DNA from: a bacterium
GTDB taxonomy: Bacteria; Armatimonadota; Abditibacteriia; Abditibacteriales; Abditibacteriaceae
Direction: 5' to 3'
Length of the DNA stretch: 64,000 bases
Assembly: GCA_004172935.1 (NCBI GenBank)
Contig: SDZD01000011.1
Coordinates: 1 to 64,000 of the forward strand
The position numbers were made by a program, and so were the translations under genes. Under the pieces are notes generated by a model. That model did not search any database and was not told where the DNA came from. It saw only the letters and a program-made list of their open reading frames with translations. Each line of letters starts with the position of its first letter. The stretch's first letter is position 1. Of this stretch, positions 1,240 through 23,815 are shown in pieces.

Positions 1240-1521
1240 ATGCCGGATGATATAAGGCGTTACCGAGCCTTGCAGCGCTGTGGCCTGTTGTAAGAAATTA
1301 CGGAATGAACGGTTGTTTATAAATCACTTCTCCCACTGATAAAATAGCGAGTTATATTCTGCATCCGTGAGCTGAAGTCGAAGATATTTTTGCCAGTGAA
1401 TGTCAGCATCATTGAGGAAGTAGGAATGGCGCCCGAACTTTGCAATTAATGCACCAGTGCCCTCTGTGTGCGGGCGCAACTCCGAGCCTTTCCGGGAGCC
1501 AAAGCACACGGGAAAATTTCG

Positions 1522-2427
1522 ATGAATAATTCAACAACTAATACCTCGCCCGATGCCGCCCAAATCGACCAATTGGCCTTGGAATACAATGGAGGCCGTC
1601 TCAATCGCCGCGACTTCATGGCCCGTCTCATCACAGTCACTGGAAGCATGGCCGCCGCTCACTTGCTAATCGAGAAAAATGGTCTGGCGCAGGTCATATC
1701 CCAGAAAGAAGTCGCCGACACCGCCAAAGGTGCCATTCAAATCACGGGCACTGATGTCACTTTCTCCACGCCCGATTTAAAACTGGGCGGCTATCTGGCC
1801 GCGCCCAAAGGCGAAGGCCCCTTCCCGGCGATAGTCGTCATCCACGAAAATCGCGGCCTCAACGAACACACCCGCGACGTAGCCCGCCGCTTCGCCATCG
1901 AAGGCTTCGTGGCATTGGCCCCCGACGCTCTCGCTCGACTTGGCGGCACCGCTTCCATGAAAACGCCCGATGAGGCCCGCACCGCCATCGGCACCATCAC
2001 CCCCGACCAAGCCGTCTCCGACCTCGAAGCCGCCCTGGTCTATCTCAACACCCTGCCCAACGTCCAAAAAGGCCACCTCGGCAGCGTTGGCTTCTGCTGG
2101 GGCGGCGCCCGCTCCTTCGCCCTCGCGGTCAAAAGCGACCTGCTCAAAGCCGCCGTCGTTTTCTACGGCAGCGCCCCGACACCCGAAGAAATCACCAAAG
2201 TCAAAGCCCCCGTTCTGGGCCTCTATGGCGAAACTGACACCCGCATCACCGGCGCCGTCCCCGACGTAGCCGCCGCCATGAAAGCCGCCAACAAATCCTA
2301 CGAATACAAAATTTACCCCGGAGCCGGACACGCCTTCTTCAATGACACAGGCGAACGCTACAACCCAACCGCCGCCGCCGACGCCTGGGCCAAAGCCACA
2401 ACCTTCCTCCACGACAAACTGAAGTAA
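1522..2427 (+). CDS. Dienelactone hydrolase family protein with RR-containing N-terminal signal
   Basis: VVIHENRGLNEHTRDVARRFA, GSVGFCWGG nucleophile motif and GAGHAFFND; N-terminal NRRDFMARLI resembles a Tat signal. ATG at 1522 preferred over 1468. Confidence 0.87.
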   Translation: MNNSTTNTSPDAAQIDQLALEYNGGRLNRRDFMARLITVTGSMAAAHLLIEKNGLAQVISQKEVADTAKGAIQITGTDVTFSTPDLKLGGYLAAPKGEGPFPAIVVIHENRGLNEHTRDVARRFAIEGFVALAPDALARLGGTASMKTPDEARTAIGTITPDQAVSDLEAALVYLNTLPNVQKGHLGSVGFCWGGARSFALAVKSDLLKAAVVFYGSAPTPEEITKVKAPVLGLYGETDTRITGAVPDVAAAMKAANKSYEYKIYPGAGHAFFNDTGERYNPTAAADAWAKATTFLHDKLK

Positions 2428-2599: not shown

Positions 2600-3110
2600 T
2601 CCAAATCGGTTATACTGAACTTAGTGAATTAGGTGTCGCGACCTAATTTGATAATCAGAGTTCGAGAAGGTCCCGCAGACTATAACAGCCTCGTCATCAC
2701 TAAACCAGCGAAGGCTCTCACCTCCCCATCAATTAAGAGTTATCTCCACCCAGTAGGGCTTATGGCAATAAGTCCAATTCCCAAGGCCCCCAAACTCCCA
2801 TGTTCTTCTCTCTATCCTCTTGCCATCCAGTCCCGACTACCGTCCAGCAAACATCGACGCTAAAACTGGCGTCCATCGGCGGTTAAAAACAATCTCTCCC
2901 AATGCCCTACTCCCTCCCACCAGAGCGACAACTCCTTCTCAAATCCCCCTCTGTGCCTCTGTGGTGATTTTCTCAATAAGCCCCCAAAGATTGAATAATA
3001 ATTGATTAATCAATCTTTTGCATATTTCACGCTTAAATCCAAATCCGTTCCCTCATTTAAACAATCTTTTTTGAGGCAAAAGATTGAAAAGCCCCCGAAA
3101 ATGATTGATT
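2600..3110 (+). repeat. Composite intergenic repeat, copy A
   Basis: Ordered motifs TATACTGAACTTAGTGAA (2609-2626), CACCAGAGCGACAACTCC, CCCTCTGTGCCTCTGTGGT (2947-2965), ATTGATTAATCAAT (3001-3014) and ATATTTCACGCTTAAATCCAAATCCGTTCCC, matching the reverse complement of copy B in the same order. Confidence 0.75.
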
Positions 3111-3171
3111 TCGAGGGCAGATCCAATTCTCAATAACTACCCCAAGTATCACCAGGAGAGAGGATGCAACT

Positions 3172-5913
3172 CTACCCAGCGAGCGCCATTTTCCGCATCT
3201 CGCCTAATTTGATGAGGGCTTCGATTGGCGTCAGGTTATCCACATCAATCGCCTTTAGCGCCTCAACGACGGGATTAGGCGCAACAGCGACCACCCCGTT
3301 CTGGTGCGGCTCATCGAACAGGCTTGTGCTCACCATCGGCGCCGAAGCGAGGGGAACCGATTCGACGTGTTGCCCACGCAATCGCTCTTGCGAGAACGAT
3401 TCGAGCAACTCTTTGGCGCGCGCTATAACCGGAGTGGGAAGCCCAGCCAATCGCGCCACCTGAATACCGAAACTGCGGTCGGTGCCACCGCGAATAATGC
3501 GGCGCAGGAAGATGATGTGGTCACCATCCTCCTTCACCGCGATTCGATAGTTCTTCGCGCGAGGCAACCGCTCTTCAAGTTCGTTGAGGTGGTGGTAGTG
3601 CGTCGCAAACAAGGTTTTCGGCCCTAGTTCGTGCAGATACTCGGCAACCGCCCACGCAATGCTCAAACCATCATAAGTCGAAGTACCACGCCCGACTTCA
3701 TCCAGAATCACGAGGCTGCGCGGCGTCGCGTTGTTCAGGATATTGGCGGTTTCGTTCATCTCGACCGTGAAGGTCGATTGTCCAGTCGCGAGGTCGTCCT
3801 GTGCGCCAACGCGCGTAAAGATGCGGTCAACAAGCCCAATCTTAGCCGCGCGAGCGGGCACGAAGGAGCCGATTTGAGCCATCAACACAATCAGCGCCAC
3901 CTGACGCAAAAAGGTCGATTTACCCGAAGCGTTCGGCCCGGTGATGATAATCTCCTGCTGCGAAGTGGTGTCCAAAACGCAGTCGTTCGGCACAAACGGC
4001 TCGCTCATCGACGCTTCGACGATGGGGTGCCGTCCCGAACGAATATCAAGAACCGGGTCTTCGACGATTTCGGGCCGCACATAATCGCGGCGCGACGCTA
4101 CTTCGGCCAAAGCCGCGAACACATCCAAATGGGCAAGCGCCTTGGCGGTATCCATCAATGGGCCACTCATCGCCGCCACCTGGTTACGCACGCGCTCGAA
4201 TAAGCGCCTCTCCAGGTCGTGGGCCTTGTCCTGAGCGCCAAGAATCAGCTCTTCCTTCTCTTTTAGTTCGGGAGTGATGTAGCGCTCACCATTGGCAGTG
4301 GTTTGCTTGCGCGTGTAGTCGGTGGGAACTTTCGACAGGTTGGTCTTCGTGACCTCGATATAGTAGCCGAAAACGTTGTTGAAGCCCACCTTGAGCGAGG
4401 TAATGCCAGTACGTGCCCGCTCGGCTTCCTCAAGCGCCACAATCCAGTTTTTACCCTCGCGTGTCGCGACACGCAGCTCATCCAAGCCGGGGTCGAAGCC
4501 ATCGCGAATCAAGTTACCATCTGTCAAAACAACCGGCGGCTCGTCGGCGAGCGACGCCTGCAACATCTCCAGCAAATCGGGCGCAGGAGTCAGATGCTTT
4601 TTGACGTTATCCAGCGATGCCGAATGAACTTCTTGCAACGCCAACTCGATGGCGGGCAAGGTCTGCATCGCGTTGCGAAGCGCCACAAGGTCGCGGGCGT
4701 TGCCCGTCCCAGCCACAGCACGCGAAACAAGGCGCTCGATGTCGCCCACAGCGCGCAACAGGTCGCGGCAGTCGCGTCGCAGCAAAATATTGTCGCGCAT
4801 TTCGCCAACCGCCTCCTGTCGCCGCTCGATGCGCTCACGCGACAGCAGCGGCTGCAAAATCCACTTGCGCAGCAAACGTGAGCCAGCCCCGGTGCGCGTT
4901 TCATCCAACAGCGAAAGCAGAGTTCCTTTGCTTGAACCATCGCGAATCGACTGCGCCAATTCCAGGTTGCGTCGCGTCGCCTGATCGAGCAACATCGAAG
5001 AATCGGTCGCCAGCAGCGTAATGCGCCGCAAGTGAGCCAGAGCGCCCAACTGCGACTCTTTCAGGTAATCGAGCGCCAGCGAAGCCGCGTCCTGTGCATC
5101 GGCGTGTTCTTCCAGCCCAAAGCCACGCAGCGAAGCCGTCTTGAAGTGCGAAAGCAACTTCTGGTGCGCAGTGTCAAAGCCCGATGGGTCGTAGGCCGTG
5201 ACATGAAAGCGCGCGTCGCTCAGCATCTGCAAAAATCCGGCACACTCGCGCAAACGTTGCGGCACCAGAATTTCCGATGGAGCAAAACGCAGCAACTCCT
5301 CGCGCAGCTTCGCGAAGCGCCCCACGCTTTCGGCGTTTTCGGGAGTCACATCGGCGGCGCCCGCTTGCGTCGCTTCAGGGTCCGGTTCACAGGGATTCAC
5401 TTCGGCTCCGGCGACAGCTTCCACTTCGCCCGCCAAAAACTCCCCCGTCGAAACGTCCACCAGCGCCAAACCGAAGCGGCTCATCTTCGAGTCACACGAA
5501 AGCGCCGCCAAAAAGTTGTTGCCCGTCGACGCGCCCACGCCCGACAAAAAAGCATCCTCCAGCACTGTTCCGGGCGAAAGCACGCGCACCACTTCGCGCT
5601 TAACGAGGCCGCGCGCAAATTTCGGGTCTTCCACCTGTTCGCAAATGGAAACGCGATACCCGCGCGAAAGCAAAGTCGCGATATGGCGCTCAACGGAGTG
5701 ATAAGGCACTCCGCACATTGGAATCGGGTTAGGCGATTCCTTGTGGCGCGCAGTGAGGGTCAGTTCGCACTCGCGCGACACAACTTTGGCATCTTCGCCA
5801 AAAATTTCGTAAAAGTCGCCCATCCGAAATAACAACAGCGTATCGGGGTGTTGAGCTTTAGCGCGCTCCCACTGGCGCATGAATGGGGTAGATTTAGCGG
5901 GCGTCTGGGACAT
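3172..5913 (-). CDS. mutS: DNA mismatch repair protein MutS
   Basis: [29 protein letters not shown]-terminus with FYE motif; Walker A ITGPNASGKSTFLRQ; DEVGRGTSTYDGLSIAWAVAEYL. Confidence 0.98.
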   Translation of the reverse strand: MSQTPAKSTPFMRQWERAKAQHPDTLLLFRMGDFYEIFGEDAKVVSRECELTLTARHKESPNPIPMCGVPYHSVERHIATLLSRGYRVSICEQVEDPKFARGLVKREVVRVLSPGTVLEDAFLSGVGASTGNNFLAALSCDSKMSRFGLALVDVSTGEFLAGEVEAVAGAEVNPCEPDPEATQAGAADVTPENAESVGRFAKLREELLRFAPSEILVPQRLRECAGFLQMLSDARFHVTAYDPSGFDTAHQKLLSHFKTASLRGFGLEEHADAQDAASLALDYLKESQLGALAHLRRITLLATDSSMLLDQATRRNLELAQSIRDGSSKGTLLSLLDETRTGAGSRLLRKWILQPLLSRERIERRQEAVGEMRDNILLRRDCRDLLRAVGDIERLVSRAVAGTGNARDLVALRNAMQTLPAIELALQEVHSASLDNVKKHLTPAPDLLEMLQASLADEPPVVLTDGNLIRDGFDPGLDELRVATREGKNWIVALEEAERARTGITSLKVGFNNVFGYYIEVTKTNLSKVPTDYTRKQTTANGERYITPELKEKEELILGAQDKAHDLERRLFERVRNQVAAMSGPLMDTAKALAHLDVFAALAEVASRRDYVRPEIVEDPVLDIRSGRHPIVEASMSEPFVPNDCVLDTTSQQEIIITGPNASGKSTFLRQVALIVLMAQIGSFVPARAAKIGLVDRIFTRVGAQDDLATGQSTFTVEMNETANILNNATPRSLVILDEVGRGTSTYDGLSIAWAVAEYLHELGPKTLFATHYHHLNELEERLPRAKNYRIAVKEDGDHIIFLRRIIRGGTDRSFGIQVARLAGLPTPVIARAKELLESFSQERLRGQHVESVPLASAPMVSTSLFDEPHQNGVVAVAPNPVVEALKAIDVDNLTPIEALIKLGEMRKMALAG

Positions 5914-18116: not shown

Positions 18117-19004
18117 ATGCGCTCGTACTGGGAAGAAGACCTCGCTATTCTAAGCGCCGAGAATGTGGCTGTTTCGGTCGAAACATCGGGGCTTGGCTCC
18201 CGCATGGCGGCGCTGTGTATTGATACCACCCTTCAGCTTTTAGTGCTGTTGCTGTTGTACCTTGGGTGGTGGGGGGCCAGCTACTACATTCCTGCCCTGA
18301 ACTCGATGCCCGCGTGGGTTCAATCGACGGCGCAAGCGCTGTACGTCATCTTCTTGTTCTTTCTGTTCTTCGGCTACTACTTCCTGTTCGAGTGGTTGTG
18401 GGACGGGCAGACGCCGGGCAAGCGTTATTTGGGAATGCGCGTCACGATGGCGAACGGATTGCCGCTTTCGATGTGGCCCGCTCTGGTGCGCAACACAGTG
18501 CGCCTGGTCGACTTCCTGCCGTTCTTTTATGGCATCGGCGCAGTTGTATCAATGGCGAACCTACTCAACCAACGCGCGGGCGATATGGCGGCGGGTACCA
18601 TCGTGGTTCGCGAAGGGCGCCGCGAGAAAGCCAATAAGCCGCTCAGTATGCGCGAGGCAGTCGATAAGTTCCTCGAAGCCGCCCAGCACGTCCCTGTTGG
18701 TCTCCCAGCTGATGCGCGCGACTGGCACGCCGAAGAACTGAGCGGGCTGAGCGTCGAAGCCATTCGCCAGATAGACCCCGAAGCCCTCGCTCTCGCCAAA
18801 AAACTGAACCGCGAAGATTACGAGTTGGCCCGCGACTTCGTAACCCGCCGCGACGCCATGCCGCGCGACACCCGCTTGCGCCTTGGGCGCGCTCTGGCGA
18901 TTCGACTGAGCGAGAAATCGGAAATGCCGCTCGATATTAATGCCCCAGAACCATTTATCGAGGGTGTTATCGTTACTCTGTCGCGCGTTTATTCGGGTGT
19001 GTGA
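18117..19004 (+). CDS. RDD family membrane protein
   Basis: SRMAALCIDTTLQLLVLLLLYL, LFEWLWDGQTPGKRYLGMRV, LVDFLPFFYGIGAVVSMANLLNQRAGDMAAGTIVVRE. Confidence 0.93.
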   Translation: MRSYWEEDLAILSAENVAVSVETSGLGSRMAALCIDTTLQLLVLLLLYLGWWGASYYIPALNSMPAWVQSTAQALYVIFLFFLFFGYYFLFEWLWDGQTPGKRYLGMRVTMANGLPLSMWPALVRNTVRLVDFLPFFYGIGAVVSMANLLNQRAGDMAAGTIVVREGRREKANKPLSMREAVDKFLEAAQHVPVGLPADARDWHAEELSGLSVEAIRQIDPEALALAKKLNREDYELARDFVTRRDAMPRDTRLRLGRALAIRLSEKSEMPLDINAPEPFIEGVIVTLSRVYSGV

Positions 19005-19084
19005 GGTGGGTTAAACACAGAGGGCACAGAGGACATAAGAAGCACAGAGGGTGAGATTGTCAGGGGAATTGAATATGGGGCGGA

Positions 19085-19375
19085 AATCAATCTTTTTGGC
19101 CTTTTAATCAATGTTTTGAGGCGAAATTTGGCTTAAAACATTGATTAAAAGGGGGAACGTATTTGGGTTTAAGCATGAAATAGGGGGAAAGATTGATTAA
19201 TCAATCTTTATTCGATTCACCACAGAGACACGGAGGCACAGAGAGTGTTTTGAGAGGAGTTTTCGTCGCTCTGGTGGTGAGGGTTTGCCTACTTGGTAGG
19301 GACGGGATGGTGTGCATGATGGTTGAGGGGTGGGGAATGAAATCTCGCCTTGATTTCATTAAATTCAGTATAGTC
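19085..19375 (-). repeat. Composite intergenic repeat, copy B
   Basis: Reverse complement carries the copy A motif series; includes a perfect 22-bp palindrome AAAGATTGATTAATCAATCTTT (19188-19209) and ACCACAGAGACACGGAGGCACAGAGAG (19219-19245). Confidence 0.75.
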
Positions 19376-19454: not shown

Positions 19455-19565
19455 GAGGGTTGGTATCCGCTACGCGGCCCTCACCCGGCCTTTGGCCACC
19501 CACGCCCAGAGGGCACCCGCGCTTCGCGGTAGAAGGATGAATTCAAGCAAACGGGCATCATTCGA
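19455..19565 (-). repeat. Dispersed intergenic repeat R1, degenerate copy
   Basis: Reverse complement 'cttctacc...ggccgggtgagggccgcgtagcgg' aligns with R1 copies at about 261-375 and 23711-23815. Confidence 0.6.
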
Positions 19566-19679: not shown

Positions 19680-21551
19680 TTAGAACAAGCCTTTGCCTGT
19701 GATGGTGTTGGTTTGGCCCTGACCGCGCACGTTGGCGATGGTGACTTCTTTCAGGCTGAGGTCGGCGACCAGGGATGTGCCGGTTTGCGAGAGTTGGCGT
19801 ACTGGGTCGACCAACGATACGCCGCCTGTGGCTGTGATTTTGTTGCTGGAGCGGTCGTAGATGGCGCGAGGGGCACGGACAACGGTGCCATTTTGTGCGC
19901 GCATGACTACGCCTCCTGATGCCACTACGCGCGAGTTGGTGGTGTTGCCTTCGACGCGGGCGGCAGTGACGGTGATGCGGCCCAGACTGCCAGCAGAGCG
20001 CAAGGTGGCAGTGGCACCGCTGGTGGCGACGACATTGTTGCCACGTTTTTCGACGCGGCCGGCGCGCACCTTTGTACCATCTTGCAAAGTAGCGCTGGCA
20101 CCTCCGGTGGCGACTGCGTTATCGCCGTTGCCTTCGACGCGAGCAGCAGTAACGAAAGTACCATCGGGAAGGTTCGCAGTAGCACCACGCGAGGCGACAT
20201 AGCTTTCGCCGCGCTTTTCGAGTTGGCCCGCTGTGATGCGAGTGCCATCGCGCAATTTACCGCGAACGGAGCCGCTCATAACGGCGTTCTGGAACTTGGC
20301 GTCGCTTTGGCCGCGATCACCGCTGAGGGTACTGCCCTGCCCGTTGATTTGGACGCCTCCGCTGGCCGTTACCGAGCCGCTATCGGCGTTGCCACTCCAA
20401 GTGGCGGAGCGGGCGCGCACGGTGCCTTGATTGGTGCGTGCGAATACGCCGCCCGATGCCTGAATACTGCCGGAATCTTTCGACCAGTTGTTGGTTTGGG
20501 CTGAACCCGCTTCGAGGCGCAGAGTGCCACGGGAGAAGATGACTCCGCTTCCGCTGATGCGGGACAGATTTTCCAGGCCACGCGCGCTGCGGATGGTCAG
20601 AACAGCGCCATCGCGCTCGACACGCACGTTTTGGGCGTTGGTGACGTTCAGGCGCGAATCGGTGGTGAGGGCTGCGGTTTGGACTTTGGCCTCTTGCCCC
20701 TGAAAGAGCGCGTTGGGGACGAAGATGCGGTCGTTCTTCCAGTTAAATTCGAGACGGGGGCCTGTTGCAGCACCTTTGGGCGATTTGGCCTGTACTTGCC
20801 CGGTGATGACGCCGCGCTGCGCCGCAGTGTCGGCTTCGAGCTGTTGTCCGGTGAGAACAACTTTCTCGTGAGTTGCGGTTACTTTTTGGGCGCTGAGGTG
20901 ATTGGTCTTCCAGTTGAAAAGGGCATTCTGGCCGCGCACTGTTGTACCGCGCGCATCAATCGTCGCGATTTTGCAGCCCAAGGTTTGCAGTGAGGTCTGC
21001 CCGGTTAGTTCAGGTGTTTTTAGAGTGATGTCGCCGCGCTTGGCCGCGACTCCGCCCGAAGCGGACATGGTGCGCTTGGTGACATCGACATCGGCGCGAG
21101 GAGCGCGCAGTTCGATGGGGGCACCGAGTAGGATTTTGGAGCTGGCGACAACCTGCCCAACCATCTGCAAACGCACGCCTTTGGCGGTGTTGAAGAGGTT
21201 AATGGTGTTGGCCCTGAAACTCGATTCGGGCTTGCCCGCCTGAAACAACGTGGCACTAGCCTGAGTTAAAACAGCCGATTGGGGGATGCCGCCTTTCATT
21301 TCGCCCTGTGAGCGCAATTCCTTGGCTTGAACACGCCACAGCGGACGGCCCTGCGCGTCGCCGATTTCGATTTGCCCACCACGCACTGTCGCGGAGCTTA
21401 AGCCTTTCACCGAAGAGGCACCGCGCTTAGCTTCGTCTTTCAGCTCTTTCTGGAACTGAGCGCGGTCGGTTTCGGAGACGCTGGTTTTTTGCGAGCAGCC
21501 GCCAATAAATAAGGCGACGGCGGCAAGCGAAAGACAAATGGTGGGTTTCAT
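19680..21551 (-). CDS. LptC/OstA-like lipoprotein with internal tandem repeats
   Basis: Lipoprotein signal MKPTICLSLAAVALFIGGCSQ; PLWRVQAKEL and repeated ASGGV beta-strand units as in LptC/LptA/OstA; about 28-aa repeats (DGTxVxAxRVEKxGxxxVAxxGAxA). ATG at 21551 preferred over the track start 21752. Confidence 0.75.
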   Translation of the reverse strand: MKPTICLSLAAVALFIGGCSQKTSVSETDRAQFQKELKDEAKRGASSVKGLSSATVRGGQIEIGDAQGRPLWRVQAKELRSQGEMKGGIPQSAVLTQASATLFQAGKPESSFRANTINLFNTAKGVRLQMVGQVVASSKILLGAPIELRAPRADVDVTKRTMSASGGVAAKRGDITLKTPELTGQTSLQTLGCKIATIDARGTTVRGQNALFNWKTNHLSAQKVTATHEKVVLTGQQLEADTAAQRGVITGQVQAKSPKGAATGPRLEFNWKNDRIFVPNALFQGQEAKVQTAALTTDSRLNVTNAQNVRVERDGAVLTIRSARGLENLSRISGSGVIFSRGTLRLEAGSAQTNNWSKDSGSIQASGGVFARTNQGTVRARSATWSGNADSGSVTASGGVQINGQGSTLSGDRGQSDAKFQNAVMSGSVRGKLRDGTRITAGQLEKRGESYVASRGATANLPDGTFVTAARVEGNGDNAVATGGASATLQDGTKVRAGRVEKRGNNVVATSGATATLRSAGSLGRITVTAARVEGNTTNSRVVASGGVVMRAQNGTVVRAPRAIYDRSSNKITATGGVSLVDPVRQLSQTGTSLVADLSLKEVTIANVRGQGQTNTITGKGLF

Positions 21552-21567
21552 GGCTAAGGGCGAGAGA

Positions 21568-22314
21568 TTAAGACGCAAAACGAAAACGAAGGAGCGCCCA
21601 CGCCGCGCGTAAACCATCACGCACGACGCGAATTTTCTTACCTTCGAGTTCGGTACGCGGACGATACCAGATGGGCGTTTGACCGATACGCGCTCCATGT
21701 TTGCGGGCACGCGCGACTTTGGCGGCAATCTCGAAATCGAGATCGAACCCATCGCATGTCAATCCGAGCGAGAGCGCGAAGGGACGCCTCATTAGTTTGT
21801 AACAGGTGGCGACATCGTCTAACGGTGCGCCGTAAAGAACGCGATAGAACAGTGTTAAACCCACGCGGCCATAGAAAAAGGCGGTACGCGGCTGGTCGCG
21901 GCGGGTGACGCTGCCGGGGGCAAGGCGAGTTCCGAAGACGGCATCGAGTCGTTTGCGATTGGCTAAGTCGAGCAGCTTTTGATAATCCGTGGGATCATAT
22001 TCGAGGTCGGCGTCCTGCACGATGACCCATTCACCACGCGCCAAACCCAGGGCGCGACGCACACTGGCGCCTTTGCCTTTGTTTTGGGTTTGGAAGAAGA
22101 CGCGCAAACGCGAAGAGGACTCAGCCTCGCCCGCCTCACCCGATTCCACTAACGACTGGAGGTACTCGCGCGTACCATCATCGGAGACGTTATCGACCAC
22201 AATGATTTCGAGGTCGATGGGTATATCGCGCACACGGCGCAAAATTTCTTCGAGCGTGGCGCGCTCGTTGTAAACCGGCATAAGCACGCTCAGAAGCGGC
22301 GGCGAATCGGGCAT
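21568..22314 (-). CDS. Glycosyltransferase family 2 (dolichol-phosphate mannosyltransferase-like)
   Basis: LSVLMPVYNERATLEEILRRV...IIVVDNVSDDGTREYL...GKGASVRRALGLARGEWVIVQDADLEYDP. Confidence 0.95.
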   Translation of the reverse strand: MPDSPPLLSVLMPVYNERATLEEILRRVRDIPIDLEIIVVDNVSDDGTREYLQSLVESGEAGEAESSSRLRVFFQTQNKGKGASVRRALGLARGEWVIVQDADLEYDPTDYQKLLDLANRKRLDAVFGTRLAPGSVTRRDQPRTAFFYGRVGLTLFYRVLYGAPLDDVATCYKLMRRPFALSLGLTCDGFDLDFEIAAKVARARKHGARIGQTPIWYRPRTELEGKKIRVVRDGLRAAWALLRFRFAS

Positions 22315-23626: not shown

Positions 23627-23710
23627 AAAAGGCGAGTTTGCTGTTTTTTGAGGTCGCTTGTCAGAGAGGAAGAGTCAGAGAGGGTTGGGAACTCATAGAA
23701 CGAGATTTGT

Positions 23711-23815
23711 TTACCGCTACGCGGCCCTCATCCGGCACCGCGACACCTACACCCTGACGACGTCGGGTACCCGCAAAGGTAGAAGGGCCGAACTCAAGTA
23801 TTCGCTCGTTTTTAC
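23711..23815 (-). repeat. Dispersed intergenic repeat R1
   Basis: Reverse complement: gagttcggcccttctacctttgcgggtacccgacgtcgtcagggtgtaggtgtcgcggtgccggatgagggccgcgtag. Confidence 0.8.

Follow-up and report, generated by a model that had tools for sequence, protein, structure and literature searches.

What is the composite element that lies between a dienelactone hydrolase-like gene (1468-2427, plus strand) and the convergent mutS gene (3172-5913, minus strand), and that recurs in inverted orientation elsewhere in the 64,000-nt stretch of DNA analysed here (the window)? The original prediction described four collinear blocks shared by two AT-rich, non-coding copies and offered three readings: a structured RNA, a regulatory module or a non-autonomous mobile element.

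The two copies, A (2603-3137, plus strand) and B (19060-19373, minus strand), both lie between convergent genes, those flanking B being an RDD family gene (18117-19004, plus) and a gene with a weak LptC-like match (19680-21617, minus). A whole-genome BLAST search with A as the query recovered B with E = 1.6e-18, and dozens of other places with a better or similar score, which excludes a chance resemblance. All four blocks were present in the same order and orientation: the left box (2603-2630 in A; 19353-19373, minus, in B); the CCACCAGAGCGAC...CTCAAA block (2917-2943; 19249-19277, minus), adjoined in both copies by the CACAGAG repeat (2949-2969; 19217-19243, minus); the palindrome, found as ATTGATTAATCAAT within 3000-3018 of A and in a perfect 22-bp form at 19188-19209 of B; and the core (3022-3066; 19139-19183, minus), where 37 of 45 positions agree, the figure originally claimed. 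The AT-richness was borne out by a core GC content of 33-34%, against 56% for the window, and no ORF of at least 80 amino acids was found in either stretch. The element runs slightly past the predicted ends, as far as position 3137 in copy A and 19060 in copy B. Copy A is the longer one, as stated, and most of its extra length is due to an insert that separates the left hairpin from an internal TTCTCAATAAG and does not belong to the minimal unit. The genes between A and B are ordinary chromosomal genes (mutS, histidine kinases, peptidases), and for this reason the pair does not resemble the ends of one large mobile element.

Copy A begins with the left end box AAATCGGTTATACTGAnnnnAGTGAATT (2603-2630, plus), followed by a hairpin, AATTAGGT-GTCGCG-ACCTAATT (2627-2648, plus), whose sequence is different in every copy. 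The insert of variable DNA and older repeats (2649-2969, plus) is missing from minimal copies and includes a CATCGGCGTCCATCGGCGGTTAAAA-type repeat at about 2861-2890 (plus). After it come the internal TTCTCAATAAG (2970-2980, plus), which is a direct repeat of the right end, ATTGAATAAT with the invariant palindrome ATTGATTAATCAAT(CTTT) (2990-3018, plus), the core ATATTTCACGCTTAAATCC...CAATC (3022-3066, plus) and a second inverted repeat built on CAATCTTTT / AAAAGATTG (3054-3091, plus). A terminator-like hairpin, GCCCTCGAAATCAATCATTTTCGGGGGC plus TTTT (3091-3118, minus), is read in the direction of mutS and precedes the right end ATCCAATTCTCAATAAC (3121-3137, plus). Just to the left of copy A, at 2455-2564, there is a 43-nt imperfect inverted repeat (GCAACCACGTGGGGTGCCTACATGA); similar text was found beside other copies (L040, L132), which assigns it to another repeat family.

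In copy B, all on the minus strand, the left end box CTATACTGAATTTAATGAAAT (19353-19373) overlaps a hairpin, GAAATC-AAGGCGA-GATTTC (19339-19357), whose stem extends to AATGAAATC/GATTTCATT. The insert consists of the CCACCAGAGCGAC block and the CACAGAG repeat (19217-19277) and is followed by the perfect palindrome AAAGATTGATTAATCAATCTTT (19188-19209), the core (19139-19183), a long inverted repeat, CTTTTAATCAATGTTTTaagccaaatttcgcCTCAAAACATTGATTAAAAG (19101-19151), and the right end ATATTCAATTCCCCTGA (19060-19076), a short-right variant.

The layout of the family was obtained by aligning copies and walking outwards from them. The consensus left end is AAATCGGTTATACTGAnnnnAATGAAAT, upstream of which the DNA is unrelated between copies; it is followed by the hairpin of copy-specific sequence, the internal TTCTCAATAAG, the invariant palindrome GATTGATTAATCAATC, the core (TTTCACGCTCAAATCC...) and, 3' of the core, one or more extra GATTGATT/AATCAATC inverted repeats (half-sites), up to the consensus right end ATTCAATTCTCA(A/T)TAA. 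The most conserved columns are those of the palindrome and the half-sites, the number of half-sites varies among copies and the flanking core drifts. A second subfamily has the core TTTTTAAACACTTAAACCTATACAAAA and, immediately ahead of the right end, an array of CTAACGACTAAAAACTA; its left end is often a different one. Complete minimal copies measure approximately 205-235 bp and the whole family ranges from 0.2 to 0.6 kb. In the long copies, A and B included, the insert always follows the left hairpin and precedes the internal TTCTCAATAAG or, where the latter is absent, as in B and others, the palindrome.

The inserts contain older repeats (CATCGGCGTCCATCGGCGG, CTCTGTGCCTCCGTGTCTCTGTGG). The CACAGAG block is itself a separate, older, genus-wide repeat carried as an insert: the same-genus genome, in which it is not accompanied by the palindrome family, has 78 exact copies of it, often arranged in inverted pairs. 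In that genome (G001) the 78 exact copies of CTCCGTGTCTCTGTGGT, with the members of inverted pairs often about 50-70 bp apart (for example L090:3617-3690 and L106:2323-2410), resemble a separate palindromic repeat element.

Searching the 7.2 Mb genome, a 216-contig assembly (92% complete, 2.8% contaminated), with a sequence model built from 18 copies identified about 85-90 family copies after removal of palindrome echoes; the copy list includes three places added from other searches, one of which (C104:3265) is supported by its right end alone. With up to one mismatch allowed, the palindrome ATTGATTAATCAATC occurred 60 times on the forward and 57 times on the reverse strand (reversed-pattern control 0/0), and the patterns of the left and right ends gave 32 (20 + 12) and 40 matches, with 0 in the reversed-pattern controls. 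The expectation of further copies in the genome was thus amply confirmed. Copies were expected in relatives as well, and as far as these could be searched none was convincing, either with the model over 20 same-phylum relatives, with blastn over 60 or with an exact pattern over 291 same-phylum genomes, a set that includes the source genome and one of the same genus. The best match reached only E = 0.088, in the same-genus genome. A gapped pattern run over about 85,000 GTDB species returned one isolated match, in Tenacibaculum; it had no match in IMG/VR, and blastn found none in phages and plasmids. Judged from these searches, the family is restricted to one bacterial species at present sampling. 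No described repeat matching it was found in the open-access literature.

The simplest reading of a family that was amplified within a single lineage, ends sharply and has older repeats nested in it is non-autonomous mobility. Among the three readings offered originally it is the best supported one, by the restriction to one species, the copy number, the sharp consensus ends and the minimal unit of 205-235 bp; the regulatory module is supported in part, and the structured RNA is not supported for the core. We give a probability of about one half to a non-autonomous, lineage-specific dispersed repeat that is copied strand-selectively in trans and has acquired a secondary use as a terminator. 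An enzyme acting in trans would copy the element after recognising the end hairpins, the GATTGATTAATCAATC arrays or both on one DNA strand, in a manner resembling that of single-strand elements which target the lagging strand. Copies landing beside stop codons would be retained, and in some convergent contexts the right-end hairpin would now probably act on the opposing gene, which for A is mutS, as its intrinsic terminator.

Searches for a mobilising enzyme, for target duplications and for terminal inverted repeats found none, and mobility itself is therefore something we infer from the sequences. Target-site duplications of k = 2-8 were not above shuffled pairings in the 17 fully delimited copies. 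A clear terminal inverted repeat is absent: the left AAATCGGTTATACTGA and the right (reverse complement) CTTATTGAGAATTGAAT have only TTAT..TGA in common. The left- and right-end matches that were inspected were mostly diverged or truncated family copies, with no gene between the ends, and yielded no autonomous relative; no palindrome or left-box motif occurred within the 3 kb surrounding the four Y1_Tnp genes of the genome. Empty insertion sites could not be read, because the nucleotide identity of the stretches syntenic with the same-genus genome is no more than about 65-77%. In that genome, the position orthologous to one occupied site (L053) carries an unrelated repeat.

Almost all copies share one direction with respect to the local strand bias of the chromosome, and the family accordingly looks like a small passenger mobile element rather than an RNA gene. 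When strands were assigned by local GC skew (±9 kb), 57 of 59 copies were on the C-rich one; the figure was still 55 of 59 with the element and ±1 kb masked, which shows that the correlation is not caused by the element's own C-rich strand. By comparison, genes on three contigs were distributed 170:72 in favour of the C-rich strand (copies versus genes, Fisher p = 3e-6). In tandem gene contexts, taken from simple codon-usage predictions with about 68-81% coding coverage, copies were co-oriented with the genes in 28 of 32 cases (28:4, p = 2e-5). Genes on either strand follow the skew domain, so that gene strand accounts for the lock only in part.

Sign reversals of the GC skew occur every 30-100 kb along the genome, which gives the chromosome the look of a mosaic made up of inverted strand-polarity segments. 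Third codon positions of genes on both strands follow the skew (contigs C25, C147 and C98). Read in the orientation of the element, the mean skew stays below zero as far as the element and crosses to positive values 5-8 kb past its right end, going from about -0.11 at -9 kb to about +0.06 at +8-9 kb. Where two neighbouring copies are no more than 30 kb apart, they converge in 17 of 21 cases, at distances of 6-25 kb, and A and B form one such convergent pair; no shared sequence was found between the members of convergent pairs in the eight intervals compared. These orientation and pairing patterns were noticed post hoc during the analysis and had not been predicted beforehand.

Other repeats of the genome are strand-locked too, and the lock is consequently not unique to this family. 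This, together with the location of most genes on the C-rich strand, means that the lock may reflect chromosome organisation and not a single-strand mechanism.

Two further dispersed repeats were observed. The GCGGCCCTCACCCGGCCT type is intergenic and occurs in the window at 264-369 and, inverted and 89% identical, at 23703-23808, with a related stretch at 19456-19510; of the 11 copies located away from the element, 10 show a lock of opposite sense with respect to local GC skew. A CCGTGTCCGCGAGAGGCT-like repeat is present at many loci of this genome (for example L080, L073 and L117) and is strand-locked 17:2 away from the family.

The same observations were weighed against a bidirectional terminator or gene-boundary module, spread by recombination and kept because its end hairpins halt transcription where directional runs of genes end. 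Right ends do hug stop codons: where the gene to the right is on the minus strand, the right end lies in most cases -5 to +12 bp from its stop codon, and where that gene is on the plus strand its start codon is typically about 90-150 bp away. The seven strong right hairpins that face a converging gene are all within 42 bp of its stop codon (7/7) and are followed by T-rich sequence, and the right hairpin of copy A, also picked up by a terminator scan, reads as a terminator for mutS. Right hairpins were stronger where a gene converges (Mann-Whitney p = 0.011), strong ones with T-runs being commoner there (Fisher p = 0.064), and the convergence of neighbouring copies also fits such a module. However, only some copies have a strong right hairpin, for which covariation was marginal, and many right ends are without one; among the 51 copies for which both neighbours were called, 28 lie between co-oriented genes and 8 between divergent ones. 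Proximity to stop codons could, moreover, come from selection against landings in promoters, and the absence of the family from the same-genus genome is left unexplained. As the primary function this module is unlikely. The regulatory reading of the original prediction is supported only for those copies with a strong terminator-like right hairpin at the stop codon of a converging gene, and a terminator role in convergent contexts is, on sequence grounds, probably secondary.

Alternatively, the GATTGATTAATCAATC palindrome and the half-sites could be sites of a nucleoid-associated or similar protein, in a DNA array whose orientation and pairing organise chromosome domains. It is consistent with this proposal that conservation is highest in the palindrome and half-sites while the core drifts, that copies point at minus-to-plus skew switches and that close neighbours converge. 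Yet the number of half-sites differs among copies, no binding protein was identified, unrelated repeats are also strand-locked and no conserved sequence was found between the members of eight convergent pairs; we regard the proposal as doubtful. A more specific form, in which about 85-90 oriented, putatively protein-binding elements flank the skew switches in convergent pairs 6-25 kb apart and mark polarity domains, as oriented sites mark replication or condensation domains, seems to us improbable.

Expression of a structured regulatory RNA from the left box, with TATACT as the -10, is favoured by the -10-like hexamer and fixed direction of the box and by a left hairpin that keeps its position while its sequence changes. 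The left hairpin was at or below the 5% shuffle level in 12 of 38 copies (mean z -1.26). However, a conserved -35 is absent and large inserts interrupt the interior of many copies. The RNAalifold consensus of the core, run on an alignment (A1) that held one misplaced row (L115) and probably a second (L114, whose differently oriented slice was nevertheless judged acceptable), was -0.27 kcal/mol with 6 pairs and no compensatory changes (0/6 covarying); the covariation count, like the search model, used an alignment (A2) without these two rows. Rfam gave nothing in the element at gathering score, only a tRNA elsewhere in the window, and at E <= 5 just two weak, chance-like snoRNA matches over ten loci. 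A structured RNA, as originally suggested, is not supported for the core, structure being confined to short hairpins at both ends, and expression from the left box is very unlikely. A chance similarity or an assembly artefact, for which one may cite the copies near contig ends, has a negligible probability: copy A matches its better copies with E = 4e-45 to 2e-18, copies lie on dozens of contigs with unrelated flanks, and the counts against empty reversed-pattern controls refute it.

Non-autonomous mobility, the preferred reading, invites comparison with known systems. IS200/IS605-type elements use the lagging-strand template for both insertion and excision, and their recognition depends on subterminal secondary structures (PMC6006769). 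The family shares with PATEs, which are non-autonomous elements of the IS200/IS605 type, and with the RAYT-mobilised REP/REPIN/BIME repeats a short, non-coding, dispersed and intergenic nature, no target duplication, the presence of Y1 transposases in the genome and, in some of the copies, hairpins near the ends; its strand-specific orientation is one relative to local GC skew. It differs from them in that no Y1 element has the same ends, the hairpin sequence is not conserved between copies and units of about 0.2 kb carry invariant internal palindrome arrays; lacking a defining Y1 element with shared ends, the family was not filed under IS200/IS605. REP/REPIN sequences are GTAG/GTGG-tagged palindromes of 20-40 nt next to RAYT genes; the motifs of this family did not occur near the Y1 genes.

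MITEs, Correia, ERIC and RUP elements are high-copy, intergenic, lineage-restricted repeats of 0.1-0.3 kb, and the family is like them in all these respects but differs in showing neither a target duplication above the chance level nor a clear terminal inverted repeat. A MITE of a DDE transposon was rejected, as terminal inverted repeats and a target duplication of fixed length were not found, nor was an autonomous partner among the end-pattern matches inspected. RIB/RIP (BIME-1) elements bind IHF at the 3' ends of E. coli transcription units; they too are mosaic repeats at gene 3' ends, a likeness by description, and AATCAATCTTTTG of the family matches the IHF core consensus WATCAANNNNTTR.

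Short dispersed repeats are common in bacteria. Unusual here are the size of the family, its absence from the nearest relative examined and its near-perfect alignment with chromosomal strand bias. If the strand lock reflects selection, the family would mark polarity domains on a scale of 30-100 kb, which to our knowledge are not recognised as a level of bacterial chromosome organisation. If it reflects copying, the family would record strand polarity and past inversions of the chromosome, and would point to an unidentified single-strand mobilisation system.
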